Shown: positions 1 to 41,779 of the stretch, one piece after another
Numbering within the stretch: the first letter of the stretch is position 1
How the letters are laid out: the number at the start of each line of letters is the position of its first letter
Virus record (IMG/VR): IMGVR_UViG_3300030333_002333
Span: 1 to 52,854 of that record
Length of the DNA stretch: 52,854 nucleotides
Direction: 5' to 3' (one strand)
Source: a virus
Notes under the pieces: model-generated
Databases searched by the model: none
What the model was told of the DNA's origin: nothing
The model's input: the letters and a program-made list of their open reading frames with translations, nothing else
Program-made: the position numbers and the translations under genes

Positions 1-269
1 TGAGGCAGTAAATGCCGTTACTCAGTTTATGAGTACTAGAACTGGGGACATGGTAGAAGGTGCTGTTAATCTTGGTGTAGCATCAGGTGTATCTGCTTGG
101 CAAGAGGGATTAAGTGTTGTAGCAGACTCAATGTTTGGAGGTGCTGTAGCAGGTGCAGGCTTCAGGGCTATTGGTAATATGATTAGAGTACCCGGTGCAA
201 AACCAGTTCTTCCCGGAACTCCTTTAAAAGAATTAACTAAAGCCCAGATTAATGAAAAAGCATTAAAGG
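1..269. repeat. Contig-terminal direct repeat, left copy
   Basis: Bases 1-269 match 52586-52854 (offset 52,585). Positions 5-267 are identical; mismatches fall at 4 (G versus A) and 268 (G versus A). Both lie in third codon positions and are synonymous (Glu GAG/GAA, Lys AAG/AAA). The repeat lies inside one open reading frame that runs through the join, so it is best read as an assembly overlap of a circular or circularly permuted molecule rather than a functional terminal repeat. True physical ends cannot be seen. Confidence 0.9.
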
Positions 270-3200: not shown

Positions 3201-6200
3201 TAGCAGATGGTAGTACCCCAACTCTTGGTGAGATGTGGGAAACATATCAAAGAGGTAATTTATCCAAGGGTGTTAAGAGAAGATATGAACATTTGTTCAC
3301 TGCTATTGCAGTAAGGACTCCTATGGACTCACTCAGTGGGGCTCATAAGCTTAAATTTGCTGGTTTTACGGGCAGAAAAGGCTATGGTGTGGTGTTACAT
3401 CCAAGAACTATGGAAGCACTGGGAGGAGCCGATTTAGACGGTGATAAAGCATCTATATTTTTTGGTGATAAGAAGTGGGGATTTAAGAATAGTTGGAAAA
3501 ATGCATATCATAATCAAAGAAGTGAGTTTTATAGTAGCGATGGTTCCCAAGGTAAGGTCCCAACTGTAAAGATTATTAGTGGTGGTCAGACTGGTGCTGA
3601 TATTGCAGGTAATGAAGTTGCTGTAGCTAGAGGGATGGAGTCAGGTGGTACAGCACCTAAAGATTATGCTACAGACCGTGGTAAAAAACCAGAGTATAAA
3701 GATAAGTATGGCATGGTAGAAATAACTGACCAGCAGACCAAGGGGTATATTGGTAGGGAAAAGAAATGGGGACCTAGAACTGAACAAAACATTATGGACT
3801 CAGATGGTACTGTTATATTTGGTGTTACTAGTTCACCCGGGAGTAAGTTAACTAAAGACCTTGCTATAAAAAATGGTAAACCATATATAGAAAATCCAAC
3901 TCCAAGAGAATTAAATGAGTTTTTAATAGAAGAAGGTATAAAAGTTTTAAATGTAGCAGGTAATAGAGAGAGGAAAAACCCGGGTATAAATAAGAAGGTT
4001 AAAGAGATACTTAATGAAGCACTTGAAGAGAAGGCTCCCGACAGAGAAATAGAGATAGAACATAACAAACCTGAAGATATGCGTAAGCTTCTAGCTGAAG
4101 ATAATCCTGAGACTTTAAGTAGGATTAAAAGTTATTCTTTAAGGTTCTCTCCACTCATGAGATATCAAGCAAGTAAAGCAGCCTATGAGGGTAGGGCTAT
4201 GCTTGGTCCTGCTGTTGTAAATAGAGCGACCCTACTAGGTGCTTATAACCAAATAAGAACATACCTAGAGCATACAGGACAGCCAAAGTTAGTTAAGAAA
4301 ACTAGAGATGGTAAGGTTTTGTGGGAAGTTACTCCTAGAATAAGCAAGGCAGAGTTAAAGAAATTCAGAAAGATTGCTAGAGCATCTGTTGCATTAGCAT
4401 CTGACCCTATGGATGAGGCTGGTTTAAAGAACATAGATACTTTTTATAATAGTGTATTTGATTCTTTGTTTAAAATGAGAAAGGCAAGTTATGACAGAGT
4501 CACTGGTGAGTTTAAAGGATGGAGGGAGAATGACCAATTAAGTACATCAGAAAGAAAGAAGATTGGTGCTGGTACAATGTCTGCTATTAACTCAGCATCC
4601 TTTGGTAGGAATTTAGAGACAGGTAACAAACATAGTTTTTATGATTTTTACAACACAATGGAAAGAGCTTATAAAGAATTACCATATACAGAGGAGATTG
4701 GATTTGGCAATGCATTCCATACTAAGATTGCAGAATTAGTTAGAGGATTAGATTGGAATGATAGCATGGTCCACAGGATTGATTCAAATAGATTAGCTGG
4801 TTGGTATGAAAGAATAGCAGAGACATTTAGCAAGGCTGAGTATAAAGATATACAATCTCTATTAGGAAGAGATAAGCCTACAGGTTCATTAAGTATCACT
4901 ATGAACAGACCACTACAGTTGGTATTGGAAAATAAAATATTTGAAGTCTTTAGTAGGAACAGACATATATGGTCAGATGACCCAGAGTCACCTAGTTTTT
5001 CTAAGTTAGTTAATGAGAACGCTGACTTGTTTTATAATTTCTTTAGGAAACATAATCCTGATATAACTCTTATGAATCAAGTTGAAAAGTTAAAGGGCAT
5101 GACTATTGAAAAGGCAGCGAGAGAGTATGATAAGATAATAACAGAAGATATGAGAAAAGACCATCATGCTTATAATGATGTAGTCAAAAGAGATGCTGAT
5201 ACTGGGGAGTTAATAGCATTTGGAGCACACAGAAAAGCAAGGAAGAGGGGTGCTAAAAAACATTGGACATTAGATGGACATAGGTCTAATAGGATTTCAG
5301 AAAAAGATATGATTCAATTGTCTGGTGGAATCAAGATGATGGATACAAAGACTAGAGCTAAAATGGTAGATGAACTACTTAAGTTGTCTAGTGATGCTAT
5401 TAGTAATGACCTTGGAGACTGGGCAAGTGCAAGACTTATTAATGAAGTATGGGCAAGGGATTCTATAAGTGGTAAAAGATTTCAAGAACTAGCAAAACTA
5501 TCTGATAAGGTTCAAAGATTGAGGCAAAAGCTTGATAAAGAAAGGGATATGGTAGCATCCTTAGAAGATATTGAAATGTCTGATGGTCAGAGAAAACAAA
5601 TAGAAAAATTAAGTGAGTTAATTGCAGGTGAAAGAACCTCTGGAGAGATGGACCAAAGAAGAGTTGATAATTTTATCCGAAGAGAAAAAGATAATATGAC
5701 TCAAGCAGAACAAGACCTATTTGATTCTCTATTAATATCTAGTTGGAAAATTGGTGAGCCAGCAAGAGTAAGGAAGATGAATAATCTTATTGATGTTATA
5801 ATAAAACAAAGACCACCAAAGAAAGGTCCAGAGCGTACTAGGTGGTTCCAACAGGTTAAGAACCTTGAGGAATTTAGAGACCAGAAGGCTAGGGAATTAC
5901 ATAATACAAAATTTAATAAAGTGGGATTCGCATCTAAAGAAGTAAGTGACCATATCATTAAGAGACAGATGGATATTATGGAAGAAGCTTATAATTCTTT
6001 TAGATATGAGGATAGCTTACGGGATACAAGGGTTGCTGAGGCACAATTAAAAGAGCTTGAAAAAGAAAATGCCAAGCAACCTTTGTTTAATGAGCAAGGT
6101 GAAAGATTGCAAGGTATAGCAATAGAGCAAAGGCACTATAGTCGTAAGACTCAAAAGTGGATGGAGGATTATGTTCCTTTTGAAGACCTGCTTAAGTATG

Positions 6201-9200
6201 AAAAAATAAAGGCAGACCCTGAAGCAAGGAAGATATTAAATAGCCTAAAAGACCATTTAAATTATTATGGTCCAAAGACTGCAGAGGATTTACACCTTAT
6301 AGTCAGAGGTATGGTTAATAAAGATATCAATGTTATGACATTACAAGATTGGAAGATTGTTGATAATATATTTAAATCATATAGGAGAGGGACTTGGTTT
6401 CAAAATTTTAAAGATAGCATTAAGAAAGGAAAATTCCCTGACTTACAAGCTAGGAATTATAGAATGTTTCCAGAGGCTATAGATAGAAACATAACAAGGT
6501 ATGAAGCTAAGTGGGCTGATACAGAAACTATATATAGAGATAAGTATGGTAACTGGATTACTGGTAGAGCAAAAGAAATGCAGGGATGGATGGGTGAGAT
6601 ACAGAATGGTATTCACTTAAGTACAGAGATTGGAACTATGCAGACTCAAAGAGAAGAGAGAGCTTGGAATGATTCAGTAGAAAGATATCTCAATACAGAA
6701 CTAGGTGAAGACCTATGGTGGTATTCAGTTGCTAAGTTTGAAGCAGATTATGTACCAAAACAATTAAGAAAAAACCCTGTGTTTGATGAACTATCAGAAT
6801 CATTTGCTCAGACTTATATAAAAAGACATGAGAAATGGCATGAAAAATTAAACTGGGATGAGACTCAAAGTAGATTACTTACATTAACTGATGGTAAAAG
6901 ATTGACTGCTGGAGAGATAAGTAAAAAAATACAGGAACTAATTGCAGTAAAGAATGCAGAGAACCATCAACTCCTAAAAGGAGAAGAAGGTTTCATGGAA
7001 AAAGAGTTCCAACTATGGGGACCAATGAAGTGGAAGAAGGGTGGAAAAACTATAAGAGGACCACTCTATTATAAGATAATCAATAACAAGACAGGGATAG
7101 CAGAGATAACAGACATTCCAGTTGTAAGTAGAAAGAAAGTTATAGAGTACTTTACACAGAAGTTGAGACATGGAGAAGCTTTTCCAGAGAATCAACTTGG
7201 TATAGATGGGATAAGAAAATTAATGTTAAGTATGCAGGTGGGTCAGTTAAGAGCACAAGAAAGAAAGACTGAAAGAACAGGTAGAATTAACCATACTGAT
7301 TCGAGAAATCTATCTGCTAGGTTATTAAAGAAAGAGATTACTCCTACTGGTACACTTGGTGAGGTTAGATATGTTAATGGAAAGAAAGCAATTTATGGAT
7401 ACTATCCTCATGTAAGTAAAATGTTTGAGAGGGATGTTATTGTTGGTGACTTAGCTCAAAAGATTAAAGCAATTTGGCGTAGTAACTTACCTAAAGAAGA
7501 AAAAGAAATGAAGGCTGCTAAATTATATCTAAGAAGTAAGCAGTTATCTGGTGACTTTGCAGAGAGAGACCCTATGAATGATAGTTGGGAAGTTGTTAGT
7601 GATGCTATTATAAGAATGCAACAAGGTAAGGAAATTAAAAAAGAGATGGGATGGTTTGAAGGGCTATCAAGAATTAGTAATCAATTCTCAAGAGAAAGCC
7701 ATGTTGATGGATGGAACATGGGACCAGAAGCCTATCTTGAATACACTAATAGTATTTATAAATCATTCTATCGTTCAATAGGACAGATAATGGCTCGTGA
7801 ATCTATCATGAGTTTTGCAGAGAAACATCCTGATATGCCACAGAATTTAAAAACAAGTTGGATGAATTTCTTTAAGCTATATGCACAGCAATCATTAGGG
7901 TTCCCTGCTGAGATACCTGATGCTATGTATGATAATAAAGATATGAAAATAAAGGGTACATTGTATGGTGCGTTAGCAGATAATAGAGTAGCCAGAAGAC
8001 TAGATAAGATGGCTGATATACTTAAGTTAAAAGATAGGAAGGGTAATCTACCAAAAGAATTAAAAGCATTGAATAAGGTAGATGCACAAACAGTAATTAA
8101 CTTGAGTAACATGGAAGCAAAGTATGCACTTGCTACATTGTTAGCCCATCCTAAATCAAGCGTTGGTAATTATCTAGGTGGTACTCAAATGACTATCATT
8201 AATTCGGGTTGGAATAATTTTAGAAAAGCAAGAAGTCTTGATTATCTTAGGAAGACTATTGACCCAGAGTTTAAAAGCTGGGAAGATGTTAATAGGTGGG
8301 TAAGAGAGCTTGGCATCATTGAAGAGTTTATACTTAGGGAGGTTGGTGCCAACCCACAATTAACTGGTGTTAAATGGAATAGTTTTTTAAAGGATTTCAA
8401 ACAAGCATTAAATAAGGACCCTAATCTACCTGATGTTACCCTTAGGGATATGATGAAGAGACATGGTTTAACTAGGACTATGACAGATATAGCAGGTAAG
8501 TTTATGTCTATACCTGAAAGAACTCTTCGTAGGGATTCATTTATAGCTCATTATATACAAGCAAGAGATAAACTTGGTGGTAGAATACTACCTAAGGACC
8601 ATCCTTACTTAATAGAGATGGGTAAGAGAGGTGTTAAGGCGACCCAGTTCTTATACTCTGTACCATTTAGACCAATGTTTGCAGGAACTGCAATGGGTAA
8701 GGTACTAACTAGGTTTCAGTTATGGGCTTGGAACAGTGTAAGATTTAGAAATCAAGTAATAAGAGAAGCAAGTGAAAGAGGAATAAATGAGCACACTCCT
8801 GAGTTTCAAAGGTTTAAAAGACTTGCTATATCAGATGCATTCTCATTAGCATTAGGTTCTATGTTTATGTATTCATTATTCGGTTCACAGATGCCACAGC
8901 CTTATGCTTGGTTCCAAGATTTATCTGATTGGATGTTTGGTGATGAGAAGGACAGGGACAGGGCTTTCTTTGGTGCTTATCCTTCACAGGTAGCACCATT
9001 ACAGTTAATAACACCACCTAGTGCTAGATTAACAGGACCAATACTTAACGGTCTTATTAATGGAGACTGGGAGAAAATGTCTAACTATTATATCTGGACA
9101 ATGTTCCCATTTGGTAGGTTAGCAAGAGACCTCTTTGGTCCGGGTGGATTAACAGAGAATCCATACTACGGATTAGATAAGATGACAGGTCTACCAGTAG

Positions 9201-9325
9201 TAGCATCAAAAAGATTATCTACTAAGAGAAAGAAAGAAGAAGAGAAAGGTACTGAGTTCTGGACTCCACCGGGATTAAAGGTATCTAAGTATTTTACAAC
9301 AGGTGAAGAGGAGGATGAAGCCTAA
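2..9325 (+). CDS. Giant RNA polymerase-like virion protein (DLDGD), residues 165-3271; 5' part is at 52095-52854
   Basis: Joining this segment to the ATG at 52095 gives one uninterrupted 3,271-aa protein. Around residue 888 a DG followed by a Lys-containing stretch and a PESAAK motif near 957 resembles the first double-psi barrel of two-barrel RNA polymerases. AVRTP near 1268 leads to GGADLDGDKASIFF, with DLDGD at 1308-1312. This is the metal-binding DxDGD signature of QDE-1/RDR, YonO and crAss-phage virion polymerases, including the GGxDLDGD context of cellular RDRs. Residues about 1353-1508 form a SLOG/YpsA-like domain (GGQTGAD at 1357, RTEQNIMDSDGT, KVLNVAGNRE). A bridge-like segment RAMLGPAVVN follows near 1562. 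The remaining roughly 1,700 residues are mostly helical and charged, with hydrophobic stretches near the C-terminus. Neighbours are ejection-type proteins, so delivery with the virion is inferred. Polymerase activity is inferred from motifs only. The stop overlaps the next start (TAATG). Confidence 0.75.
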   Translation, partial: EAVNAVTQFMSTRTGDMVEGAVNLGVASGVSAWQEGLSVVADSMFGGAVAGAGFRAIGNMIRVPGAKPVLPGTPLKELTKAQINEKALKGIAGSLMMGLPATLRGATTEEQIYDYLLGAFFGQQEMYVKNRRAIEHLRKMKTEYRDPETDTLGTPHPELVEGWKTLDSETKGIVRGIVEQDIKQGGVISHLLYRDDYNKLKAMQDAQGKAKEIYEGEVVERVRRPEEELTESRDTTGNTGDMNPELREPEAYEALFTKTRHYVERFLENEWKDAPDKQLALEDAWRTVNRKWNDVVERNIRLQDTENPAQEMIKWVNKKYKKNIVEGNEEWNYWTKWGQARKYNKPVQVASIVLDIKGAQRRRNRMDPELRGQTILEPDNRLHILNENLEPDAMNMAQNSKQLREPAKILEGVYANEIHKHTGLRHDPRDPVYLVVDHVVSNVKTGGKYFKEESFSDLRRNLTQDAKDLFQLQAKQGMFQGLSGKELKTVKEKFIARETEAKYNNIMQSTLRSLNERGYLYLGGRGDAERLYFVKQHPGIKTKMFFEGSTVPRREKNLRNQILDTLQKEVDRQFREGTIREKEDVMALYAREKKLWQDIMASGSRNYDQRSRGYDKQQAGKLFDRTFLNNVMYDLSMNGLPFTKKAIRQLGMPGMIRDAKAFNKRSQIWFTNGTPSDPAFIKRVASEEASIPIPDEGYRFILHEDTKGKTFLSSQAKEYVHTMDGEIIMLPELVKAHNLEQGLPLEGNVNKSFIVSPSAEHGAMLGKYQFKGAPSELAEAMRANNIHMIVPESAAKQWGSRPMYERWEWSNGNIKLYKADGSLERRASKNWDVNNLPIESIRTVTSEITGDKSKKDARLPKQMQSNLTPFGYKPIKHRVIDEIFERASRRSFEGDPEINSLAEQLQGMPNEKIERKILKNIEDLGVPQLLKLINDPTNESFAVKAYNKILRVNESIVNDLIAEGEISGEQGHAIKLDAMEWSSVFDRMTSLKPGSLTPLLHKVGDNYRQSVLRNYILAQIVKPKMTNSISARMVGYDSYLQKKLPELQKNDNIFYLDDSYADKQMRLADGSTPTLGEMWETYQRGNLSKGVKRRYEHLFTAIAVRTPMDSLSGAHKLKFAGFTGRKGYGVVLHPRTMEALGGADLDGDKASIFFGDKKWGFKNSWKNAYHNQRSEFYSSDGSQGKVPTVKIISGGQTGADIAGNEVAVARGMESGGTAPKDYATDRGKKPEYKDKYGMVEITDQQTKGYIGREKKWGPRTEQNIMDSDGTVIFGVTSSPGSKLTKDLAIKNGKPYIENPTPRELNEFLIEEGIKVLNVAGNRERKNPGINKKVKEILNEALEEKAPDREIEIEHNKPEDMRKLLAEDNPETLSRIKSYSLRFSPLMRYQASKAAYEGRAMLGPAVVNRATLLGAYNQIRTYLEHTGQPKLVKKTRDGKVLWEVTPRISKAELKKFRKIARASVALASDPMDEAGLKNIDTFYNSVFDSLFKMRKASYDRVTGEFKGWRENDQLSTSERKKIGAGTMSAINSASFGRNLETGNKHSFYDFYNTMERAYKELPYTEEIGFGNAFHTKIAELVRGLDWNDSMVHRIDSNRLAGWYERIAETFSKAEYKDIQSLLGRDKPTGSLSITMNRPLQLVLENKIFEVFSRNRHIWSDDPESPSFSKLVNENADLFYNFFRKHNPDITLMNQVEKLKGMTIEKAAREYDKIITEDMRKDHHAYNDVVKRDADTGELIAFGAHRKARKRGAKKHWTLDGHRSNRISEKDMIQLSGGIKMMDTKTRAKMVDELLKLSSDAISNDLGDWASARLINEVWARDSISGKRFQELAKLSDKVQRLRQKLDKERDMVASLEDIEMSDGQRKQIEKLSELIAGERTSGEMDQRRVDNFIRREKDNMTQAEQDLFDSLLISSWKIGEPARVRKMNNLIDVIIKQRPPKKGPERTRWFQQVKNLEEFRDQKARELHNTKFNKVGFASKEVSDHIIKRQMDIMEEAYNSFRYEDSLRDTRVAEAQLKELEKENAKQPLFNEQGERLQGIAIEQRHYSRKTQKWMEDYVPFEDLLKYEKIKADPEARKILNSLKDHLNYYGPKTAEDLHLIVRGMVNKDINVMTLQDWKIVDNIFKSYRRGTWFQNFKDSIKKGKFPDLQARNYRMFPEAIDRNITRYEAKWADTETIYRDKYGNWITGRAKEMQGWMGEIQNGIHLSTEIGTMQTQREERAWNDSVERYLNTELGEDLWWYSVAKFEADYVPKQLRKNPVFDELSESFAQTYIKRHEKWHEKLNWDETQSRLLTLTDGKRLTAGEISKKIQELIAVKNAENHQLLKGEEGFMEKEFQLWGPMKWKKGGKTIRGPLYYKIINNKTGIAEITDIPVVSRKKVIEYFTQKLRHGEAFPENQLGIDGIRKLMLSMQVGQLRAQERKTERTGRINHTDSRNLSARLLKKEITPTGTLGEVRYVNGKKAIYGYYPHVSKMFERDVIVGDLAQKIKAIWRSNLPKEEKEMKAAKLYLRSKQLSGDFAERDPMNDSWEVVSDAIIRMQQGKEIKKEMGWFEGLSRISNQFSRESHVDGWNMGPEAYLEYTNSIYKSFYRSIGQIMARESIMSFAEKHPDMPQNLKTSWMNFFKLYAQQSLGFPAEIPDAMYDNKDMKIKGTLYGALADNRVARRLDKMADILKLKDRKGNLPKELKALNKVDAQTVINLSNMEAKYALATLLAHPKSSVGNYLGGTQMTIINSGWNNFRKARSLDYLRKTIDPEFKSWEDVNRWVRELGIIEEFILREVGANPQLTGVKWNSFLKDFKQALNKDPNLPDVTLRDMMKRHGLTRTMTDIAGKFMSIPERTLRRDSFIAHYIQARDKLGGRILPKDHPYLIEMGKRGVKATQFLYSVPFRPMFAGTAMGKVLTRFQLWAWNSVRFRNQVIREASERGINEHTPEFQRFKRLAISDAFSLALGSMFMYSLFGSQMPQPYAWFQDLSDWMFGDEKDRDRAFFGAYPSQVAPLQLITPPSARLTGPILNGLINGDWEKMSNYYIWTMFPFGRLARDLFGPGGLTENPYYGLDKMTGLPVVASKRLSTKRKKEEEKGTEFWTPPGLKVSKYFTTGEEEDEA

Positions 9326-14389: not shown

Positions 14390-14944
14390 TCATGAGCGTT
14401 TAACTCGTTTCACCTTGTTGATTGTTGCTCCGTCAGGCATATCTTTATTATCCTTTGCTAAGGACATACAAGCTTTGCGTAACTTTGCTTTATCTACTTT
14501 CTGCACTATTTCAGTTTTTATGAAATCATCTGGGAGTGCATTTTGGTCATGTACAATGACCGAACCAAATGTTTCGTACAACTTATACCTTGCAGTATCA
14601 GTTTCTAAAACTCCATTTTCATCTCCAAGTTCTTCTATCAACATTGGTAGTAAAACTTTATTAAGATAATCAGAAGTTCTAGTTAAGGCATTTTTCCTAT
14701 TTCGTAACCTAGCAATTTCGTCTTTATGAGCCTCTATCTCTGCGTCTATCAGATATTCTCTTTCCTTGATATTTTGTGAGAAAAAGTCAATGCCATCAGC
14801 CTTGTCCTTAATCTTTCCTTGTATCAAGGATTGTTCTTCTAATAAAGCAGGAAGATTAGATTCCTCTTCGAGTTCCATCCTAAGCATTAAATCCATATGG
14901 TCTCCAATAAGCTCTTTTGCAGTTTGCTTTTTATCGTTATTCAT
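14390..14944 (-). CDS. Siphovirus Gp157-like protein, 184 aa
   Basis: The order of features matches the phage Gp157 family: an acidic helical N-terminus, a central coiled coil with RLRNRKNALTRTSDYLNKVLLPML, then a beta-rich segment (ARYKLYETFGSVIVHD) and a C-terminal segment LPDDFIK..KVDKAKLRKACM..PDGATINKVKRVKRS. Family members are frequent in phage recombination/replication modules and have been linked to phage resistance, with no settled biochemistry. AAGGAG precedes the start, which overlaps the end of the primase-helicase gene. Confidence 0.8.
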   Translation of the reverse strand: MNNDKKQTAKELIGDHMDLMLRMELEEESNLPALLEEQSLIQGKIKDKADGIDFFSQNIKEREYLIDAEIEAHKDEIARLRNRKNALTRTSDYLNKVLLPMLIEELGDENGVLETDTARYKLYETFGSVIVHDQNALPDDFIKTEIVQKVDKAKLRKACMSLAKDNKDMPDGATINKVKRVKRS

Positions 14945-16736
14945 AGTCTCTCCTTAATCTAAATGATGGTCTCCATCTTAAAGGAACATCCTCAAAGAGT
15001 TCTCCATCTGAGTTTTTAAACAATGATAGTAGTTTTACTGGGTCTTTGGATTGCCCATTAATCCCAATAACTTTACGACTAGCATTTTCAATAGCACCAC
15101 TACCTTTACCAGCATATAAATCAAGAACATCATTTTTAGAATATTCTCTACTTACCTGTGATAATTGTATAATTATTATATCATTATTAACTGCCATGTT
15201 AGATAAGCTATGACTTATATATCTAATACCTTCATATTCACCACGGTGAGAAGGACCAGCATCTATCAAGTCAATGTAATCTACAACTACAACTTGAGGG
15301 TCTAACTCTTTAATCTTATGAGCAATATCCTCAACTGTTGGTTGTATGGTTTGTATAATTATATGGTCTAATAATTCTTTATGGTCATCTGCTATCTGCT
15401 TTGCATTTGCTTCTACTTGTTGTTTATCTACATCAGCAACTATTTGAATGTGTCTTTTATGCATGTACCAATCACTCAATTCTAAACTTAAATATAATGT
15501 ATTTAGTTGTTGGTCTGGGTCTATTCTATCTTGTGAAGCGTTATAACCTAAGACTATATTTTGAGCAACTGTTGTTTTACCAGCACCAGTTGGACCAAAG
15601 ATGGTTACCAACTCACCGGGATATATCGTACAATCTAAATTAGGAAGTCCAAAGATTTTTGATAAATCTATAGTTCTTCCACTGAAATCCGTAGACAGTC
15701 TTTCTTCTAGTTTCTGCTGTAATTGTGTGAAGTCCTGTACATTAATTGTATAGTCCTTTCTCTTGTAATGAATACAATGTGTTTGACATCGTGCTTTCAT
15801 CTCTGGGTCTTGACATCCATATTGATACCCATTATTGTATACTGATTCGACCTTCTCCAGAATAATGTTTTCAGATAATTGATTATCATTCCAATATAAA
15901 AGTGCAGCCTTAGTAGCGTCACTTGGTATACCATTTCTTCTAAAGTGTGATGCAATTCTGAGTATTATATTGTTTCGAGTACCAGATTGAGGTCCTTCTT
16001 TCCACATTTGCTGTACACATGGTACAACTTTTGTAGGTTCCTGAACGGCTTTAAAGGCTCTTACTGTCTCAACATTGGTTTTTATACTAGTTTGTAGGGA
16101 ACCATCTCCCCACATAGCATCTTCCCAATCAATACGGGATGGTGTCTTTGCCAGTTCTTTAACATCTTCAAACTTCATACTAATGAAAGATTCAAAAGGC
16201 ATAAGAGTTTTAAATAAATTTGATTTAGGATTTTTAGTACCCTCTTCTCTATAAATAGATGTTCTCATATAAACAGCAGGGTCTATATCGATACTTTCTA
16301 TTAATTGAGTCATGGTTTGTTTAACCATGTAAGGTAAATCCTCATGTGGCTCAAATCCAAAACAATCAGAACATACCATTATATGATACCCAGTTCCACT
16401 ATAATAGATTTTATAATTACCAAGTTTTAAACCTAATTCCATTAACTCTCTTACTGCAGACTTTGCTTGTTCTAAAGTATACTCATCAGAATTATCTTTC
16501 TTATCAATATCTATAAGTATGCTATCAGTATAGCGTTTACCCATATAATCTTTTAAAGAATGATGAGTTCTAACAAAGTCTACTGCAGTATCATCATATA
16601 AATAATGAGACCGATAGATAGGCATAGTCTGCCCCTTGTCAAAAAATTCATTAAGATTTTTCTCGTATTCCCCAAGGGTCATAAGGAGTCCCCGTTGCCG
16701 AGGACTCCCTATTGCTACTTCAACATATAGTGCCAT
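14937..16736 (-). CDS. Bifunctional archaeo-eukaryotic-type primase / DnaB-like helicase, up to 599 aa
   Basis: The N-terminal half has primase motifs. Counting from the alternative ATG at 16682, ILIDIDKKD (D58, D60) is the metal-binding hhDhD and YSGTGYHIMV (S95, G98, H100) is the nucleotide-binding motif; downstream RTSIYREEG..KSNLFKTL is the third region. A CQDPEMKARCQTHC cysteine cluster links it to a RecA-fold helicase with Walker A GPTGAGKTT and Walker B VVVVDYIDLID, then LSQVSREYSKND. Primase plus helicase in one chain would unwind and prime the replication fork, as T7 gp4 does with a different primase fold. No phage DNA polymerase was found, so host polymerase is presumably recruited. 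The first ATG (16736) lacks a clear ribosome-binding site; the ATG at 16682 follows a hairpin. Confidence 0.85.
   Translation of the reverse strand: MALYVEVAIGSPRQRGLLMTLGEYEKNLNEFFDKGQTMPIYRSHYLYDDTAVDFVRTHHSLKDYMGKRYTDSILIDIDKKDNSDEYTLEQAKSAVRELMELGLKLGNYKIYYSGTGYHIMVCSDCFGFEPHEDLPYMVKQTMTQLIESIDIDPAVYMRTSIYREEGTKNPKSNLFKTLMPFESFISMKFEDVKELAKTPSRIDWEDAMWGDGSLQTSIKTNVETVRAFKAVQEPTKVVPCVQQMWKEGPQSGTRNNIILRIASHFRRNGIPSDATKAALLYWNDNQLSENIILEKVESVYNNGYQYGCQDPEMKARCQTHCIHYKRKDYTINVQDFTQLQQKLEERLSTDFSGRTIDLSKIFGLPNLDCTIYPGELVTIFGPTGAGKTTVAQNIVLGYNASQDRIDPDQQLNTLYLSLELSDWYMHKRHIQIVADVDKQQVEANAKQIADDHKELLDHIIIQTIQPTVEDIAHKIKELDPQVVVVDYIDLIDAGPSHRGEYEGIRYISHSLSNMAVNNDIIIIQLSQVSREYSKNDVLDLYAGKGSGAIENASRKVIGINGQSKDPVKLLSLFKNSDGELFEDVPLRWRPSFRLRRDYE
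16685..16708 (-). promoter_or_regulatory. Hairpin immediately upstream of alternative primase-helicase start
   Basis: GGAGTCC (16685-16691) and GGACTCC (16702-16708) form a 7-bp perfect stem with a 10-nt loop. On the minus strand its last base lies 2 nt before the ATG at 16682. If the first ATG (16736) is used, the hairpin is inside the coding sequence; otherwise it would sequester the only purine-rich stretch (GGGGA) before the start and could control translation. Confidence 0.35.
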
Positions 16737-16784: not shown

Positions 16785-17408
16785 CTAAAACGGCAAATCA
16801 TCGCCTGATGCAGATGTCGTGGTTGAAGTAGTAGTGTTGGCAACATCCTCATCGGACGCCTCCTTAATATACTGCTTTTGTTGCATATAGGTAACATAAC
16901 TAGTTAGTTCTGCTTTCCCTTTTGCATCATTAGAGCATATTTTGCCAAGAACTCTTTTATACACCTTTGCTCCTGCCTTTTTAGGGGCTTCTTTGTAAAG
17001 ATATATATAGAAGTCAAATGGTGGCTCTAACATAGGATTGTCAGAACCATTCATATTGTTTATGTGGTTATTAAGAGATGTTTCAATGTTGTCAATGACA
17101 CCACCTTCTTCATCTTCCCAAGTTCCCATGGTGTTAATACCACCTTCATAACCAATAGCATCCTTAAAATAGTTAAATTGTCTAACCATTTTATTGACTT
17201 TCACAGTACCATCGGCTTCTTTATCAAAAGAACCTTTGATACTATGAACTTGGGGATATTGACTCCCTTTTAAGTTGAAATGGACATCAATCCATACATC
17301 AGCCCAATCATATTGGTCTGACCTGTCTTCAACTTTGATTATACCAGCCTCAAAGTAACCAGTAAAATCATTCTTGACAGAAGATGTTTTGGTTTGTAAT
17401 AACGCCAT
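16785..17408 (-). CDS. SSB-like single-stranded DNA-binding protein, 207 aa
   Basis: The last residues, GDDLPF after a Ser/Thr-rich low-complexity linker, copy the acidic DDxPF tip with which bacterial SSB proteins and phage analogues recruit partners. The preceding 180 residues are beta-rich with aromatic residues, compatible with an OB fold, but I see no diagnostic SSB motif there. The ATG at 17408 is preferred over 17426 because GGAG sits 9 nt upstream and the upstream gene stops at 17410. It lies between the RecA-like and primase-helicase genes, where an SSB would be expected. Confidence 0.75.
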   Translation of the reverse strand: MALLQTKTSSVKNDFTGYFEAGIIKVEDRSDQYDWADVWIDVHFNLKGSQYPQVHSIKGSFDKEADGTVKVNKMVRQFNYFKDAIGYEGGINTMGTWEDEEGGVIDNIETSLNNHINNMNGSDNPMLEPPFDFYIYLYKEAPKKAGAKVYKRVLGKICSNDAKGKAELTSYVTYMQQKQYIKEASDEDVANTTTSTTTSASGDDLPF

Positions 17409-17409
17409 G

Positions 17410-18246
17410 TTATTCTTCTCCTTCATCTTTGTATTCAGTTATTGCCTTTGTAATGTCATCGTAGGTAAAAGGCAGTATTTTCCCATTCAATGGTTTTAGT
17501 CTAGAACCAACTGTTCTCTCATCATAAGCTTGAAAAGAAACATTAGGTATAATTTCATCCTTAACAACCGTACTATACCCAATCACATCAGCTCTAGCAC
17601 ATAGTGCGTAACCTAGACCTCTAGGGAGTTCTGGGCTTAATTGCACTTTGCCATCGTTCATTTGAGATTGCTTTGAGTGGGATGTTAAAATCAAGTTAGA
17701 ACCATGTTGTTTCATAAGCATTTGTAAACGCTTAACTAAATCAACATTTTTCCTTCTTGCTTTACCCCAGTCAGCACCCCACTGACCTTCGCCCATAGCA
17801 GTTATACCAAGTTCTTCACATACTGCTTTCTCTATCCATTGATTGACAGTATCTATCGTATCAATGACCAGAGTTTCATATGGTAGTTCTTGCCAGTTAT
17901 CCTTTAACCAGAGGAATACCTCTGCTAATGAATAAACTTCCATGGGTTCTCCCTTCTGTGGACCTACACGATGATAAAAACCTCTTTCCAAGTTTGGAAT
18001 AATTTTCCTATCATCGCCTTCACCTTCGTAGGGGGGATTTAATGATGTAACAGTTACAACATTTGCTCCATCAACAAAGTCTGCTCCTAAATCAGTATCA
18101 AGAATTAAGACACCTTCGGCACCTTTACTTGACCAATTTGCAGCAGCAGTTGTTTTACCCGTTTTAGGCTGACCGATAAAATACCAAGTCAGCCCCCCGG
18201 GTGCATCTTGCCAATTAGTTGAAACTGTACGAGCTTGTATTTTCAT
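17410..18246 (-). CDS. RecA-fold ATPase, Sak4-like (AAA_24), 278 aa
   Basis: Walker A is IGQPKTGKTT (residues 24-33), followed by a short hydrophobic strand VLILDTDLGAD, a Walker B-like ETLVIDTIDT and a later LILTSHSKQSQ sensor strand. The size and motif order match the phage Sak4/AAA_24 family, compact RecA paralogues that act with SSB in single-strand annealing and recombination. GAGG lies 6 nt before the ATG. The gene overlaps the E1-like gene by 32 nt and is followed by the SSB-like gene, consistent with that role. Confidence 0.85.
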   Translation of the reverse strand: MKIQARTVSTNWQDAPGGLTWYFIGQPKTGKTTAAANWSSKGAEGVLILDTDLGADFVDGANVVTVTSLNPPYEGEGDDRKIIPNLERGFYHRVGPQKGEPMEVYSLAEVFLWLKDNWQELPYETLVIDTIDTVNQWIEKAVCEELGITAMGEGQWGADWGKARRKNVDLVKRLQMLMKQHGSNLILTSHSKQSQMNDGKVQLSPELPRGLGYALCARADVIGYSTVVKDEIIPNVSFQAYDERTVGSRLKPLNGKILPFTYDDITKAITEYKDEGEE

Positions 18247-18973
18247 ACGACACCTCTTCAGTTAATATGTTATCTGATTGTTCATCTTCTCCACAATAAA
18301 AGTCTTCTTTCTTTATATCTAAAGGCGAAAGACCTTGCCAAATATACTGAAAAAATGGTCTCTCAGTCAAGTAATTAAACATCTGAGTAACACCTATTCC
18401 AGCAATTAGGTTAGCACAGAATATCGTATGTTTCATTGTACATGGAGCTTGTTCTCCAGAGCCTCCGTTAGGAAACCAGTACTTATCATAAACATCGCTA
18501 TTCCTTGTTATTGTTATGCATGACATAGTTAGAGCGTCCATACGCATATCAATAAAGACTTGCCTATTTTCTCTTGTCAACCAGTTATCATAAACACATT
18601 TTCTTGAAGTCATGTCGTCTGTACAAACTATCGTTTTATCAGAAAGGACTTGCCCAGTGCCTGTGAATTTCTCCACAAGCATCTGGGTTTCCACATCTTC
18701 TCCACCGTAATTTTCAACTATCCTGTTTGCGAATCCAGCTTTAGTGTTGGACTCTGTAGGGTCGTACCATTTCTCTGGATACAGGGTTGTTCCAAAGTTG
18801 TGTTGTTCCATCGAATCGTTATCGTAACCTCTGATAAAATCAAATCCCATGATAGCCAATAGTTGAACTACTGCACTACCAATTCCACCAAGACCAACGA
18901 CTGTTACATCGTCAAGCCTTTCTTGTGGAATTAAGTCTTGATTCCTCAGATGTTTCTGGGAGAGCAATGACAT
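18215..18973 (-). CDS. ThiF/E1-like Ubl-activating protein, 252 aa
   Basis: The N-terminal arm QKHLRNQDLIPQERL is typical of ThiF-family E1 proteins. GLGGIGS (27-33) is the nucleotide-binding loop and DNDSMEQHNF (D51, D53, E56, N59) the acidic ATP/Mg segment. TIVCTDDMTSRK follows and CTMKH offers a candidate thiol (C178). E1 proteins adenylate the C-terminal Gly of a ubiquitin-like protein and form a thioester. No zinc-binding Cys pairs are apparent. GGAG lies 6 nt before the ATG, supporting this start despite the 62-nt overlap with the JAB gene. It is the last member of the Ubl cassette and directly precedes the RecA-like gene. Confidence 0.88.
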   Translation of the reverse strand: MSLLSQKHLRNQDLIPQERLDDVTVVGLGGIGSAVVQLLAIMGFDFIRGYDNDSMEQHNFGTTLYPEKWYDPTESNTKAGFANRIVENYGGEDVETQMLVEKFTGTGQVLSDKTIVCTDDMTSRKCVYDNWLTRENRQVFIDMRMDALTMSCITITRNSDVYDKYWFPNGGSGEQAPCTMKHTIFCANLIAGIGVTQMFNYLTERPFFQYIWQGLSPLDIKKEDFYCGEDEQSDNILTEEVSYENTSSYSFN

Positions 18974-19844
18974 CTCTAGCTCCTTCTATTTTATCAAATT
19001 CAGTTTCTCCTTTATTCCAAGCCATTATAAAAGATACTGGGTCTAAACCAAGTGCCTCTAATTGCTCAGCAAAAGCAGTATACTGTAATTTGTTATTGTG
19101 ATAGGCTTCGGCTAATAACATCAAGAATGCATCTTCAGGTTCACCTTGCTGACTAGCAAGTTCTTGAATCTCCTCAATAAGTTTCTCATCTGGGTCAGTC
19201 TCGTTGATAGCCTTCCCATAGCCGTTGAAACCTTGAGTGTCTCCATGTCCCCAAAATGTACCTTGATTGTATACATTTCCTCTGCCGTAAAATCCAACTG
19301 CAGTCGTCTCTTTCTTTTCTTTCTTAATCTTATCTGCAATGTATTTCCATTTACTCTCTTCTTCATCAGGTGGCATTTTCATTTTAACATCACCTTTAGA
19401 AGCTTCATAGATATGAACTTTATCATAATGGTCTTTATAACCACATGCAAATGCCCATCTCTCTTTAGCACTGGCAACAACAGTAGAACAATAAAAGTTC
19501 TCCTGTGGTGCATTATCTTCTATGCAGGATTTATCTGTACCACTGAAGAAAGCACCCATACTATGATGGGAATGAATTATTCCCATCATACACTTTTCAG
19601 TTTCTGGATACTCTTTCCATGTTTTGGTAAGAATCTTAGCTGTATCACCTGCTTCAATAGTAGTGGCTGTGCCATGTCCTAAATCAACAGGATGAAAGTG
19701 AACTAATTCAAATCCTACGGGGAATTTCTCGCCTTTTTTAAGAATTGGCTTGTACCATGCTGGTCCACTCCATTCTTCAGACGGGAATCTGTTTAGAAAA
19801 TAAGTCACCTTGTTCCACACTCTTAGTGGTACTTGTAAGTACAT
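18912..19844 (-). CDS. JAB/MPN (JAMM) metalloprotease, 310 aa
   Basis: Counting from the ATG at 19844, SEEWSG supplies the upstream Glu (E23/E24). HSHHSMGAFFSGTD gives H91, H93, S101 and D104, an exact HxH-x7-S-x2-D zinc-peptidase motif. Such enzymes trim Ubl precursors or remove Ubl from targets. The C-terminal 150 residues are acidic and helical with a Gly/Asn-rich linker (GRGNVYNQG), longer than a bare JAB domain. The second ATG (19844) is chosen because GGAG is 7 nt upstream; the first (19850) is only 1 nt away from it. It overlaps both the E2-like and E1-like genes. Confidence 0.88.
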   Translation of the reverse strand: MYLQVPLRVWNKVTYFLNRFPSEEWSGPAWYKPILKKGEKFPVGFELVHFHPVDLGHGTATTIEAGDTAKILTKTWKEYPETEKCMMGIIHSHHSMGAFFSGTDKSCIEDNAPQENFYCSTVVASAKERWAFACGYKDHYDKVHIYEASKGDVKMKMPPDEEESKWKYIADKIKKEKKETTAVGFYGRGNVYNQGTFWGHGDTQGFNGYGKAINETDPDEKLIEEIQELASQQGEPEDAFLMLLAEAYHNNKLQYTAFAEQLEALGLDPVSFIMAWNKGETEFDKIEGARDVIALPETSEESRLNSTRKA

Positions 19845-21915
19845 TTTCATACTCCTCGTATTTTTGCTTATAATGGTCTTTCCAACTATTATAAGCCAGT
19901 TTGATTATTTCCACATCAATCATGTATCTCAACTCTTTGACCTCGTCAATAGATTTTGGAAATTCTGGGAAAACTTTATAGAACCATCCAATGAAACTAT
20001 CAAGAACAAGTTCTTGCATATCAGAATCATAGTCATGCAAATTACCATGCATTGCATCCATAAAGATTTCCCTATCGTCTTCGTCAGCTAATTCACTCTT
20101 TGAAAGCATTTCGATTACGAATGACCTGTAAGGTCCAATCAGTGAACAATTTCTCAGACAATAGCTAAATAACTGTTGCCATATTTCACTATTCGTTAGC
20201 TTTTCTTGAGGATAATAGCCATCCCAGTTATGATTACGCAAAACTAATGTATCGGGAATTAAAATCATTCCCACAAAGTCTTGTGTATGCGACATTGGTG
20301 CGTATCTACCTGTTTTGCTCATGCTTTCACATGCTCTTTTCATCTTCATATTCCAATAGTCTACCCAAGCAAAGTTTGGGTGGTCATCATGAGTATAGTA
20401 ACTCATACTACCATCAGTAAAGGTACCGTCATCATTCCAATAACACCTACCTGCTAGTAGCATTGACTCTTCTTCTAGTTTATCATAATCATGATTGGTA
20501 GCAATGGTAAAATCTCTTGTAATGAGTTCCCATTCACCAGTTGAATCTGATAGTCTTGAAGAAACTTCCCATCTAGCGTGACTGTCCATAATAGTATCAA
20601 GCTCAGGGTTCTTTCCAAGAACCATTAGCATTGTAGTATAATTACCACACACTCTTTGGCTTGACCTATTCCATTCATGCTGTCCAAAATTGGAAAGAAC
20701 ATTAAGTAAGCCATAACCCATGGGTCTTCTACTAACATATGTTTTTAAATAATTTTGTTTAAAATCATCTAAAACATTACCCCAGTTCTGTCTATACCAT
20801 GTTGATACACCTTGCATGAAAGCGTGCATATCACCAAGCGTCCAGTCATACCCAGATTTAGAAGTTATCCATTGACAGACTGCACTTGATACTCTTCTGT
20901 CTGTTAAATGGCTTATTGAATCTGTCCAAGTAACATACTTAGAATATTGTTCTGCCCATTCATCACCAGAAATATCGCCATGTGGATATCTAGCAAAAGG
21001 TGCTAAAACAATCTCAGCCTGTTTATGGATATCATCTACCATATGTTCAAATGCCCACGGTTCTTTTTCCATGAGTTCTGAATTATCTTCATAGATATAC
21101 CAATTCAATACTCGTTCCCAGATAATAGCATTTCTACCAGTATCTTCACAAAATTGAATTATCCAGTCTTCGCCAAATACCTGTCTCAGACTCCTATCTA
21201 ATGCTATTGCTTTTTCAGGAGCACCCTTTCTTACTAGATTGAGAGCACCATAAGGATATACAAATCCACGCAATGTTTCATTAGTATTCTCATCTTGTAT
21301 CTTAGTATCCCACATATATGCATCTACACTAAAGAATGTACTACGACCATTATAGTCATTAAGAAATCCTCTAATAGTTTCCAGTTGCTGATATGGTGAG
21401 TTATACTGGGAATCGACAATATTTTCATGCCATCTTCCATAACAAGCATTACCACCATTATCTACATGTGGATGATAAAAAGTAAAGAATGGATTTTCAC
21501 ATAGTTCATATGCGTCTTCTGGTGGTGCATCTCTGAGATATGATACAGGTTCTGCTTTTTGCAAATACCTTAATACCTCAGGAGCCCAATCAAAATGTCC
21601 ATACCTTAAAGGAAATGCTACATAGCAAGGTGCTGTATACCAAAATTTTCGTATCCGTAATCGTATGTCCCGTACTATCCATAATACATAATCTCTCTGA
21701 CTATCATAAATAAATTCATATTCATTTAGAAAATCATACCAATTCATATTATTAGCGATATCTCCATCTGGGATTTTATTCAAAAACAATCGTTCCATTA
21801 GTTGTACTGCTGATATTTCGTTAGTTATTTCCTTGCCATCTACTACATTACTTGTATATTTAATTACACTTTTTTTATTTAATCGCTCGTGCGTTGCTGT
21901 TTCACTCGAAAACAT
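19777..21915 (-). CDS. E2-like (UBC-fold) protein with large C-terminal extension, 712 aa
   Basis: Residues 146-160 read FYHPHVDNGGNACYG. H148-P149-H150 with Gly155 and Cys158 matches the E2 HPN...G..C core with the exact H-to-Cys spacing of 10 seen in ubiquitin-conjugating enzymes; HPH in place of HPN occurs in prokaryotic E2-like families. The preceding 60 residues (FPLRYGHFDWAPEV, then DAPPEDAYELCENPF) suit the E2 beta-sheet. Residues about 170-712 are Trp/Tyr-rich and mostly helical, and I recognise no family. It could be a target-recognition or E3-like part. Position between Ubl and JAB/E1 genes supports the assignment. Sequence-only evidence; an E2 fold still needs structural confirmation. 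Confidence 0.68.
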   Translation of the reverse strand: MFSSETATHERLNKKSVIKYTSNVVDGKEITNEISAVQLMERLFLNKIPDGDIANNMNWYDFLNEYEFIYDSQRDYVLWIVRDIRLRIRKFWYTAPCYVAFPLRYGHFDWAPEVLRYLQKAEPVSYLRDAPPEDAYELCENPFFTFYHPHVDNGGNACYGRWHENIVDSQYNSPYQQLETIRGFLNDYNGRSTFFSVDAYMWDTKIQDENTNETLRGFVYPYGALNLVRKGAPEKAIALDRSLRQVFGEDWIIQFCEDTGRNAIIWERVLNWYIYEDNSELMEKEPWAFEHMVDDIHKQAEIVLAPFARYPHGDISGDEWAEQYSKYVTWTDSISHLTDRRVSSAVCQWITSKSGYDWTLGDMHAFMQGVSTWYRQNWGNVLDDFKQNYLKTYVSRRPMGYGLLNVLSNFGQHEWNRSSQRVCGNYTTMLMVLGKNPELDTIMDSHARWEVSSRLSDSTGEWELITRDFTIATNHDYDKLEEESMLLAGRCYWNDDGTFTDGSMSYYTHDDHPNFAWVDYWNMKMKRACESMSKTGRYAPMSHTQDFVGMILIPDTLVLRNHNWDGYYPQEKLTNSEIWQQLFSYCLRNCSLIGPYRSFVIEMLSKSELADEDDREIFMDAMHGNLHDYDSDMQELVLDSFIGWFYKVFPEFPKSIDEVKELRYMIDVEIIKLAYNSWKDHYKQKYEEYENVLTSTTKSVEQGDLFSKQIPV

Positions 21916-21947
21916 ATTGTTTCCTCCTTTTAAGTTGTGAACCGTGA

Positions 21948-21971
21948 GGGCTGGTTATTGTTTCCCAGCCC
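21948..21971 (-). promoter_or_regulatory. Hairpin between Ubl and E2-like genes
   Basis: GGGCTGG (21948-21954) pairs perfectly with CCAGCCC (21965-21971) across a 10-nt loop. It sits in the 87-nt gap between the Ubl stop and the E2-like start, upstream of AAAAGGAGG. No T-run follows, so it more likely sets message stability or the Ubl:E2 ratio than terminates fully. Confidence 0.4.
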
Positions 21972-22002
21972 CCCGTGTTCGATTATGCTGAAAAGTTAAA
22001 AA

Positions 22003-22272
22003 TTAACCTTTCAGAGTACTGACGATGAAGACTCTTGCTCCACCGTTCCCAGACTCTTGCTTAGCCTTCTGAAAAGACACAGTCTGTCCATCTCTTAAAC
22101 GAGTGGAAGACTTTGCAGGTTTACCACCTACATAGATTGCAACATCACTATCAGCGATACCGAATCCTTCCTTTTCAGCAATCTCAGCGGGAGTGGACGC
22201 TACCACAGTCTTAGGAACACCACCTGAATGGTATGCCATATAGCGTACAGTTGGTTTGTCACTATTTGCCAT
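22003..22272 (-). CDS. Ubiquitin-like (beta-grasp) protein, 89 aa
   Basis: The size and pattern fit a prokaryotic ubiquitin-like modifier: strand VRYMAYHSG, a helix STPAEIAEKEG, a short strand SDVAIYVGGK, RLRDGQTVSF, and a final strand ending RVFIVSTLKG with a terminal Gly. PRTRC-system protein C, a known prokaryotic Ubl, also ends in a short TKG-type tail. The terminal Gly would be the residue adenylated by the E1. GGAGG lies 10 nt upstream of the ATG. It is the first gene of the Ubl/E2/JAB/E1 cassette. Fold assignment rests on pattern and context. Confidence 0.68.
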   Translation of the reverse strand: MANSDKPTVRYMAYHSGGVPKTVVASTPAEIAEKEGFGIADSDVAIYVGGKPAKSSTRLRDGQTVSFQKAKQESGNGGARVFIVSTLKG

Positions 22273-40736: not shown

Positions 40737-40913
40737 ATGAGTAATCGTAAAAAGCGATTGGAGACAACAGAATGGATGTTTTTAATAAAAGCTTTAGAAA
40801 TGCTAACTATATCTGGTAAGGATGTAAGGAAATTTGTTGAAATACTAGATAAAGTTGAACATCAGACTGAGTTATCCATGGCTAGGGACAATAAACTTGC
40901 AGAAGAGAAGTAA
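40737..40913 (+). CDS. Small helical protein upstream of collagen-like fibre, 58 aa
   Basis: AAAAGGAGG precedes the ATG by 4-5 nt. The sequence is basic then helical ([20 protein letters not shown]) and ends in a TAATG overlap with the collagen-like gene. It corresponds in position and helical content to the 69-aa gene upstream of the other MATWKRIL fibre. Confidence 0.6.
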
Positions 40914-41779
40914 TGGCTACTTGGAAAAGAATACTTACAACAGATGACACTTCTAGTGGACCACCCGGACCACCCGGACCTACTGGCTCACAAGGACCAA
41001 CAGGTCCTACAGGAGCAACTGGAGGAACCGGTCCAACAGGACCAGCAGGTGAAGATGGAGATGATGGTGGACCGGGACCAACAGGACCAACAGGAAGCAC
41101 TGGGGCACAAGGACCAGCAGGACCAACTGGGTCAACAGGTTCACCGGGACCACCGGGTCCACCGGGACCAGCTGGACCCACAGGACCAAGTGGTAGTAAT
41201 GGCTCTAATGGTTCTGATGGTAGTGATGGTGATGATGGTGCTACATGGCATTTCTCAACTAGTGTAGGTGCACCTCCAAGTGGAACTGGTAAGAACGGAG
41301 ACTTTGCATACCACTCAAGTACTGAAAAGATTTACTATAAAGAGAGTGGCAGTTGGTCTGAGAAATCAGATTTAACTGGTGCACCCGGTCCTCCGGGACC
41401 TACTGGTTCAACCGGAGGTACTGGACCTACTGGTGGAACAGGACCCACTGGACCTGATGGTCCTCCCGGTCCTCCCGGACCAACGGGTTCTCAAGGTCCT
41501 ACGGGACCTGCTGGTGCTGATGGTGATGACGGGTCTGATGGAAGTAATGGACCTCCGGGACCTCCCGGACCTCCGGGTCCGACAGGTAGTAGTGGACCAT
41601 CTGGACCTTCTGGACCTGCAGGACCAGCCGGACCTGCTGGACCAACCGGACCATCTGGTACAGGTTTATCAAATTCTACAAATGACATCATAGGAAGTGG
41701 TGAATTTAAAATTCATGTAGATACTGATGCTCCTACTGCTAGTGATGGTTCTGATGGCGATATCTGGTTTCAATATTAA
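40913..41779 (+). CDS. Collagen-like tail fibre, 288 aa
   Basis: After the [15 protein letters not shown] anchor shared with the previous fibre, two Gly-X-Y blocks of roughly 30 triplets each (residues about 17-110 and 155-255) flank a short globular insert ([14 protein letters not shown]...WSEKSDL). Triplets include many GPP, GPT, GSD and GDD. Collagen-like triple helices act as rigid shafts in phage fibres. Prolines in the Y position (GPP) are frequent. The C-terminal cap ends DGDIWFQY, next to the LamG-like gene with a TAATG overlap. Confidence 0.9.

Follow-up and report, generated by a model that had tools for sequence, protein, structure and literature searches.

A probable phage-encoded ubiquitin-like conjugation cassette predicted to act at the host replication fork

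The marine phage record IMGVR_UViG_3300030333_002333 of IMG/VR, 52.9 kb long and analysed here over its whole length (positions 1 to 52,854, referred to as the window), carries at 18215-22272 on the minus strand four adjacent genes for a ubiquitin-like protein (Ubl), an E2-like conjugating protein, a JAB/JAMM isopeptidase and an E1-like activating enzyme. Judging from their sequences, the four very probably make up a Ubl conjugation system, and we consider it reasonably likely that this is a phage-encoded, reversible cassette acting at the replication fork of the host. An earlier note on this DNA had described the four open reading frames (ORFs) in this place, and all are present, in the order given and on the minus strand. 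In the direction of transcription the Ubl, E2-like, JAB and E1-like genes are followed by those for a Sak4-like ATPase, an SSB-like protein and a primase-helicase, with overlaps of 74 nucleotides for E2/JAB, 62 for JAB/E1 and 32 for E1/Sak4; the last two agree with the overlapping JAB, E1 and RecA-like genes noticed earlier. The features of the cassette are:

22003..22272, minus strand: Ubl precursor, 89 residues, ThiS/TGS-type beta-grasp (ORF, homologue family matches, predicted structure, profile match)
22003..22047, minus strand: variable C-terminal Ubl tail NGGARVFIVSTLKG and stop codon, following the invariant S74-G75; removal by JAB predicted
19777..21915, minus strand: E2-like conjugating protein, 712 residues (ORF, residue conservation, predicted structure)
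21442..21474, minus strand: E2 active-site motif HPHV-x6-C158-Y-G160, with H148 and H150 (invariance, profile alignment on HPN..C)
19798..19812, minus strand: QGDLF, E2 residues 702-706, a beta-clamp-binding-type motif (relatives, shuffling, codon test, disorder, consensus)
18912..19850, minus strand: JAB/JAMM isopeptidase, 312 residues (Prok-JAB PF14464 above cut-off)
19533..19574, minus strand: JAMM motif H93-S-H95-x7-S103-x2-D106, with a conserved E26 in EWSGP in addition (conservation in 59 sequences)
19251..19265, minus strand: degenerate QGTFW in the JAB linker, weak in the window; clamp-motif matches at or near the same place in relatives
18215..18973, minus strand: E1-like Ubl-activating enzyme, 252 residues (ThiF PF00899, 1.7e-9)
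18875..18895, minus strand: E1 nucleotide-binding GLGGIGS (conservation)
18419..18445, minus strand: E1 catalytic-cysteine motif P177-C178-TMKHTIF (conservation)

Relatives in marine and crAss-like phages

When viral contigs were scanned with the E1, 139 relatives emerged and 80 of them were retained; the profile scan counted 219. All four genes stand in the same order in 40 of the 40 marine loci with enough upstream sequence (in two of them the Ubl was identified solely as an ORF ending in SG), and the marine relatives keep the Sak4-SSB-primase synteny beside the cassette. The complete set, earlier placed in a phage replication operon, is thus maintained there as a unit.

The E1 matches 45 records in INPHARED, chiefly from crAss-like phages, and the four-gene order is found in 11 annotated phages, namely the cultured crAss001, nine other crAss-like genomes and Flavobacterium phage Fpv3. 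In crAss001 the Ubl, which has a C-terminal extension, is gp79, the E2 is gp78, the JAB is gp77 (annotated as a 'metalloprotease') and the E1 is gp76 (annotated as a 'thiamine biosynthesis protein'); the cassette adjoins primase and uracil-DNA glycosylase genes. Most of 77 further crAss-like contigs share the four-gene order. Across the crAss-like loci (n=90), a JAB was found in 73, an E2-like neighbour in 73 and an SG-ending Ubl in 71, and the cassette lies in the replication module of these phages. A conserved gene, the equivalent of crAss001 gp75, was also seen between the crAss E1 and the uracil-DNA glycosylase (L082:9648-10460 and relatives).

Identity to the window proteins drops to about 38-45% for the E1 and to 11-17% for the most distant E2s, and the cassette motifs can be taken as real and far above chance because they are kept in such diverged relatives. 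The marine E1 profile has no relative among GTDB bacterial genome contigs, and the crAss-type E1 appears in bacterial genome data on two contigs of metagenome-assembled genomes, which are probably phage; the cassette looks phage-specific. A gene of Tenacibaculum phage PTm1 annotated 'ubiquitin-like proteins' (L209:28842-30320) encodes a hydrophobic protein and appears to be misannotated; we consider it unrelated, since neither it nor its neighbours have an HPH..C, JAMM or E1 motif.

The probable pro-Ubl terminus and the predicted catalytic sites

By itself the window Ubl has no significant Pfam match, and the same is true of the window E2. Among its homologues, ThiS matches occur in 6 of 36 (best 6.5e-4) and TGS matches in 10, and the family profile matches ThiS 2cu3 in the PDB (E=1.6e-4); a 'cap repeat' match of the same profile was set aside as a repeat artefact. 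The AlphaFold2 model has the order of elements of a beta-grasp, the fold expected in the earlier note for this 89-residue protein, and though its confidence is low (predicted local distance difference test, pLDDT, only 68) it matches SUMO, Ub, ThiS and TGS folds in Foldseek.

The Ubl had been described as ending in LKG. This is correct for the literal C-terminus, but LKG is not conserved even among close relatives and is not the working terminus: all 36 of 36 Ubls share an invariant Ser-Gly (S74-G75 in the window, with the G75 codon at 22048-22050), and the tail beyond it varies in sequence and length even from one close relative to the next. After the S-G, marine Ubls continue with NGGARVFIVSTLKG (in the window), HRTFKVQVR, NI, C or K, or have no further residue. 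The tail has 0-15 residues in most marine phages and from 2 to about 200 in crAss phages, where the site reads K-[IV]-[KR]-SG and is followed by anything from two residues to a domain of about 200. An invariant S-G, a disposable tail and an adjoining gene for a JAMM peptidase are together what would be expected if the JAB processes a pro-Ubl, and we therefore hold with high confidence that the Ubl is a precursor predicted to be cut after S74-G75. Two of the crAss extensions deserve mention in their own right. The pro-Ubl of cr126_1 holds a ribosomal L7/L12 C-terminal domain (L083:5287-6213; PF00542, 5e-12), and others share a helical module, AMSRAEAYNAIKxxGLQ...FGKNFTxCKTxDL, directly after the SG (L082:5238-5915 and relatives), which is possibly a released DNA- or protein-binding domain.

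The JAB matches Prok-JAB (PF14464, E=7e-6, above the Pfam cut-off), and its JAMM residues H93, H95, S103 and D106, seen earlier as a perfect HxH-x7-S-x2-D motif, are each conserved in at least 97% of 59 sequences, with E26 at 93%. The E1 matches ThiF (PF00899, E=1.7e-9, also above cut-off), and its nucleotide-binding loop GLGGIGS, already noticed earlier, is conserved across 44 to 61 sequences. An invariant cysteine absent from the earlier note, Cys178, lies in PCTMKHTIF, which is 100% conserved from C178 to F185 in 61 sequences; the catalytic site of eukaryotic E1s reads PxCT(L/I), and the PCTMK context is similar. The best matches of the E1 profile in the PDB are the E1s of SUMO (1.8e-9) and NEDD8, and the protein lacks CxxC zinc pairs.

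The E2-like protein is far more divergent. The HPHV..C motif with the spacing of an E2, noticed earlier, is conserved: all 45 of 45 relatives, at 11-32% identity, keep H148, H150, C158 and G160 without exception, and the H148-to-C158 spacing of 10 equals that of eukaryotic E2s. When the marine E2 cores were compared as a profile with five eukaryotic E2s (whose sequences may be inexact), the alignment fell on the eukaryotic HPN..C site with a score of 26.9, compared to a maximum of 21.5 among 150 column-shuffled decoys (150/150 exceeded). In the AlphaFold model residues 1-190 are confident (block pLDDT about 70-96) and the long helical remainder is poorly resolved. As to the UBC fold expected in the earlier note, the N-terminal model is confident and the active sites align, whereas Foldseek of the whole protein recovers no UBC fold, so that the assignment rests on the active-site profile alignment. 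We consider a UBC fold likely for the N-terminal region.

Several observations count against the E2 assignment. Foldseek of the full model against PDB and BFVD gives no significant or UBC match, and no Pfam E2 family matches any of the 45 members. For the crAss proteins, comparison with known eukaryotic E2s is not significant (12.4, E=0.37), and their match to the marine E2 profile is modest (8e-4). A search of PDB sequences with the E2-core profile gave no match, nor did a tblastn search of annotated phages with the window E2, the crAss E2s having been reached via synteny and crAss001 gp78 only. They carry HSHV..C.G, a pattern present in 64 of the 73 E2-like neighbours, and it is by operon position, the HxH..CxG motif and the modest profile match that crAss and marine E2s appear to be linked.

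The matches of the Ubl and E1 bear on a different reading, in which a ThiS/MoaD-like Ubl is a sulfur carrier, converted to a thiocarboxylate by the E1 and trimmed by the JAB, and passes sulfur on to nucleotide, tRNA or DNA modification. The Ubl sequence is indeed closest to ThiS/TGS, the E1 is weakly like ThiF/MoeB, and the JABs of bacterial sulfur operons have been proposed to trim ThiS-like precursors (Iyer 2006, PMC1779556). Against it stand the dedicated E2-like protein, always present with its invariant His and Cys, an E1 closest to those of SUMO and NEDD8 and without the CxxC zinc site, a Ubl terminus of SG rather than the GG of ThiS/MoaD, and the lack of any rhodanese or sulfurtransferase gene among the neighbours scanned. 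We regard a sulfur carrier as quite improbable.

A clamp-type motif at the end of the E2

The C-terminal half of the E2 is highly divergent, and its ends still read QGDLF, QSELF, QTELF, QAELF, QVPLSF, QVHLSF, QVPLFF and the like. Within the last 35 residues, Q..LF or Q..LxF is found in 34 of 39 non-redundant E2s compared to 0.8 expected by shuffling, with no matches in the tails of the JAB, E1 and Ubl. Ligands of the bacterial beta sliding clamp follow the consensus Q-phi-x-[LM]-[FL] or Q-phi-x-[LM]-x-[FL], and Pol III alpha of E. coli has the C-terminal clamp motif SEQVELEFD (PMC11139829), which E2 tails such as STQVPLSFD* resemble. In the window, pLDDT is below 50 at residues 699-712, among which QGDLF falls, as expected for a short linear motif. 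The E2 tail thus agrees with the consensus in a disordered segment, with an aliphatic residue at position 2 in part of the relatives only.

The motif lies exactly inside the stretch shared with the JAB, and we first suspected it to be an artefact of this overlap, a by-product of the JAB start (K14..Y17-F18-L19, read in the other frame) that binds nothing. JAB residues K14, Y17, F18 and L19 do generate much of it. Because the stretch also encodes the JAB start, synonymous JAB codons were resampled with the codon usage of each of 38 loci. The motif is observed in 33 of the 38, where 1.2 would be expected; disallowing codon choices that put a stop into the E2 frame raises the expectation to 12.9, roughly one locus in three. 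The E2 frame also stays open though most synonymous choices would stop it (the probability of no stop is often below 0.1). The nominal P values of 1e-18 and 1e-62 are overstated, as the lineages are not independent, but the direction is clear: the E2 motif appears to be selected beyond what the overlapping JAB frame explains. Clamp-type motifs are also found outside the overlap, in JAB linkers, as NQGTLF, GQSNLF and NQTRLFED in relatives and QGELPF and QLTLFDD in crAss phages, where they occur in 14 of 57 linkers compared to 2.8 expected. The codon test argues against the overlap as a full explanation, and we judge a mere by-product to be unlikely. Within the same stretch, the swap between QxxLF and QxxLxF in the E2 correlates with F18/L18 in the JAB.

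Clamp binding is nonetheless open to a number of objections. At position 2, where an aliphatic residue is preferred, tails of the QGDLF type have none; the 74-nucleotide stretch (19777-19850, minus strand) is dual-coding, with conservation of the E2 tail motif in one frame and of JAB helix 1 in another; and a clamp motif is missing from L032, L051 and L077, the marine members that have diverged furthest, and from the majority of crAss cassettes. Q..LxF is found too in 8 of 14 Sak4 sequences, probably inside the fold, so a motif match alone is no proof of clamp binding. Weighing these together with the inflated P values, we still find it likely that the C-terminal motif tethers the E2 to the beta sliding clamp of the host.

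Known systems, proposed mechanism and genomic surroundings

Operons with Ubl, E2-like, JAB and E1-like proteins as neighbouring genes are known from bacteria as type 6d (Iyer, Burroughs and Aravind 2006, PMC1779556). They share with the phage cassette a standalone small Ubl with a conserved C-terminal Gly. The type 6d operons are bacterial, and the classical active-site His is missing from their E2s but present in the phage E2, where HPH is invariant; the predicted pro-Ubl cut after SG, the clamp-type motif and the setting in a phage replication operon also set the cassette apart. We take type 6d to be the PRTRC cassette, to which the phage proteins show weak PRTRC_A and PRTRC_ThiF similarity that remains far from the NCBIfam cut-offs (12-38 bits compared to 102-145; 14.1 compared to 101.8 for PRTRC_A and 12.3 compared to 144.75 for PRTRC_ThiF). 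The Bil antiphage system, a host-encoded defence, has the same four components as separate genes (BilA the Ubl, BilB the E2, BilC the JAB and BilD the E1). None of the BilA-D models matches the window proteins at E<=1, and the crAss001 E1 has a weak BilD match (2.5e-5). In CBASS, E1 and E2 are fused in one protein, Cap2, whose conjugation target is a CD-NTase, and Cap3 is a JAB (PMC10097602, PMC11153139); the E1, E2 and JAB chemistry is shared, and the phage cassette differs in having E1 and E2 as separate genes and a dedicated Ubl. Matches to the CBASS E1-E2 model are weak (2.5e-4) and short of the type II definition, and no cyclase is present in the neighbouring genes examined at the cassette. 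Membership in PRTRC, Bil or CBASS, the families to which the earlier note had related the genes, is therefore not supported: the cassette would work like type 6d, Bil and CBASS but is not counted as a member of any, as it falls short of all their curated models.

The likeness to immune systems raises the possibility that the same chemistry serves counter-defence, attaching the Ubl to host immune or other proteins to inactivate them, with the replication operon only setting early expression. Bil and BUB are bacterial cassettes acting in immunity, and takeover genes are often found in early phage operons. The related CBASS cassettes act in immunity as well (PMC10097602, PMC11153139). Counter-defence genes, however, usually have a patchy distribution and are swapped among relatives. 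This cassette, by contrast, was retained in every one of 40 marine loci, and the fixed Sak4-SSB-primase synteny across diverged phages points, together with the clamp motif, to replication. Counter-defence seems to us an unlikely main role. More improbable still is that the cassette modifies or matures virion proteins. Phages lambda and T1 do encode a Ubl and JAB pair in the tail assembly module (TAPI-TAPK; PMC1779556), though without the E1 and E2 that are both present here, and our cassette belongs to the replication module, which is encoded on the other strand from the structural genes.

The preferred reading is thus a role in replication, a link that the earlier note had also drawn and that gains from the Sak4-SSB-primase synteny, the replication module of crAss phages and the clamp-type E2 tail. 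The Ubl would be made as a precursor and cut by the JAB after S74-G75; the E1 would adenylate Gly75 and take the Ubl onto Cys178, from where it would be handed to Cys158 of the E2. The E2 is predicted to dock on the host beta sliding clamp via QGDLF, and in some relatives the JAB has a clamp motif of its own. If the E2 and some JABs are so tethered, both conjugation and deconjugation would be directed at clamp-bound proteins, which might be the clamp itself, host Pol III, or the phage SSB, Sak4 or primase. Speculatively, the E2 may also supply an E3 function through its long helical C-terminal region.

In a last step the host Pol III machinery would be recruited or remodelled, a suggestion made because none of the polymerase and clamp families tested (DNA_pol_A, DNA_pol_B, DNA_pol3_alpha, DnaN) was found in 11 records, the window and ten relatives of 33-55 kb, which as fragments could miss them. 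As the phages have a primase-helicase, SSB and Sak4, use of host Pol III and the host clamp is the simplest view, and an E2 with a clamp motif fits that need. One fact speaks against this: crAss001 encodes its own PolA, and host-polymerase dependence is therefore not the sole reason for the cassette. An integrase (PF00589) was likewise not found in the 11 records, which is only suggestive of the lytic lifestyle assumed in the earlier note.

The fullest form of this reading, a viral system directed at the replisome in marine phages and Crassvirales, whose clamp-docked E2 (and some JABs) would reversibly tag fork proteins, we offer tentatively, at slightly less than an even chance. The same tentative estimate covers, jointly, its being a convergent counterpart of PCNA ubiquitylation and SUMOylation, with a phage in which no polymerase is identifiable commandeering host Pol III. 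In eukaryotes the modification of PCNA brings Ubl enzymes to a sliding clamp; the parallel is an analogy only, with phage clamp targeting suggested by a short motif on the E2 itself.

Bacterial Ubl conjugation has so far been discussed mainly as bacterial defence. If the proposal is correct, phages themselves use protein conjugation, in at least three phage groups that include the abundant gut crAss phages, where cassette genes are currently labelled 'thiamine biosynthesis' and 'hypothetical'. It is also relevant to the question of how host DNA polymerase III is recruited by phages in which no polymerase can be identified. We found no phage Ubl cassette described in the literature, subscription papers being outside the scope, so that an earlier description is possible. 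As far as found, the full phage-encoded cassette with a predicted pro-Ubl cut site and a fixed place in the replication module of several phage groups is new, as is the clamp-type motif on the E2. Both predictions, the pro-Ubl cut after SG and the clamp-docked E2, are testable in crAss001 as a cultured model phage.

The replication genes beside the cassette, which as a module lie on the strand opposite the structural genes of the window, are:

17410..18246, minus strand: Sak4-like RecA-family ATPase (PHROG 124, 2.3e-26; AAA_24, 2.7e-18)
16785..17426, minus strand: SSB-like protein with acidic C-terminal tip DDLPF (conserved position)
14937..16736, minus strand: primase-helicase (DnaB_C, 2.1e-17; PriCT_1, 7e-7)

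The SSB-like protein has no Pfam or PHROG family match, and a downstream protein of Flavobacterium phage Fpv3 (L121:8870-9958) likewise ends in DLPF.

Elsewhere in the window, on the plus strand, an ORF of 3098 residues (29-9325) has a cpYpsA/SLOG domain at residues 1181-1330 (PF12694, 4.7e-25). By eye its GGADLDGDKASIFFG looks similar to DxDGD, the catalytic motif of two-barrel RNA polymerases, and the product is possibly a virion RNA polymerase. A 2OG-Fe(II) oxygenase (42983-43561, plus strand; PF13640, 7e-15) lies amid the structural genes, and a collagen-like protein with GPPGPTG repeats (40913-41779, plus strand) is probably a fibre.

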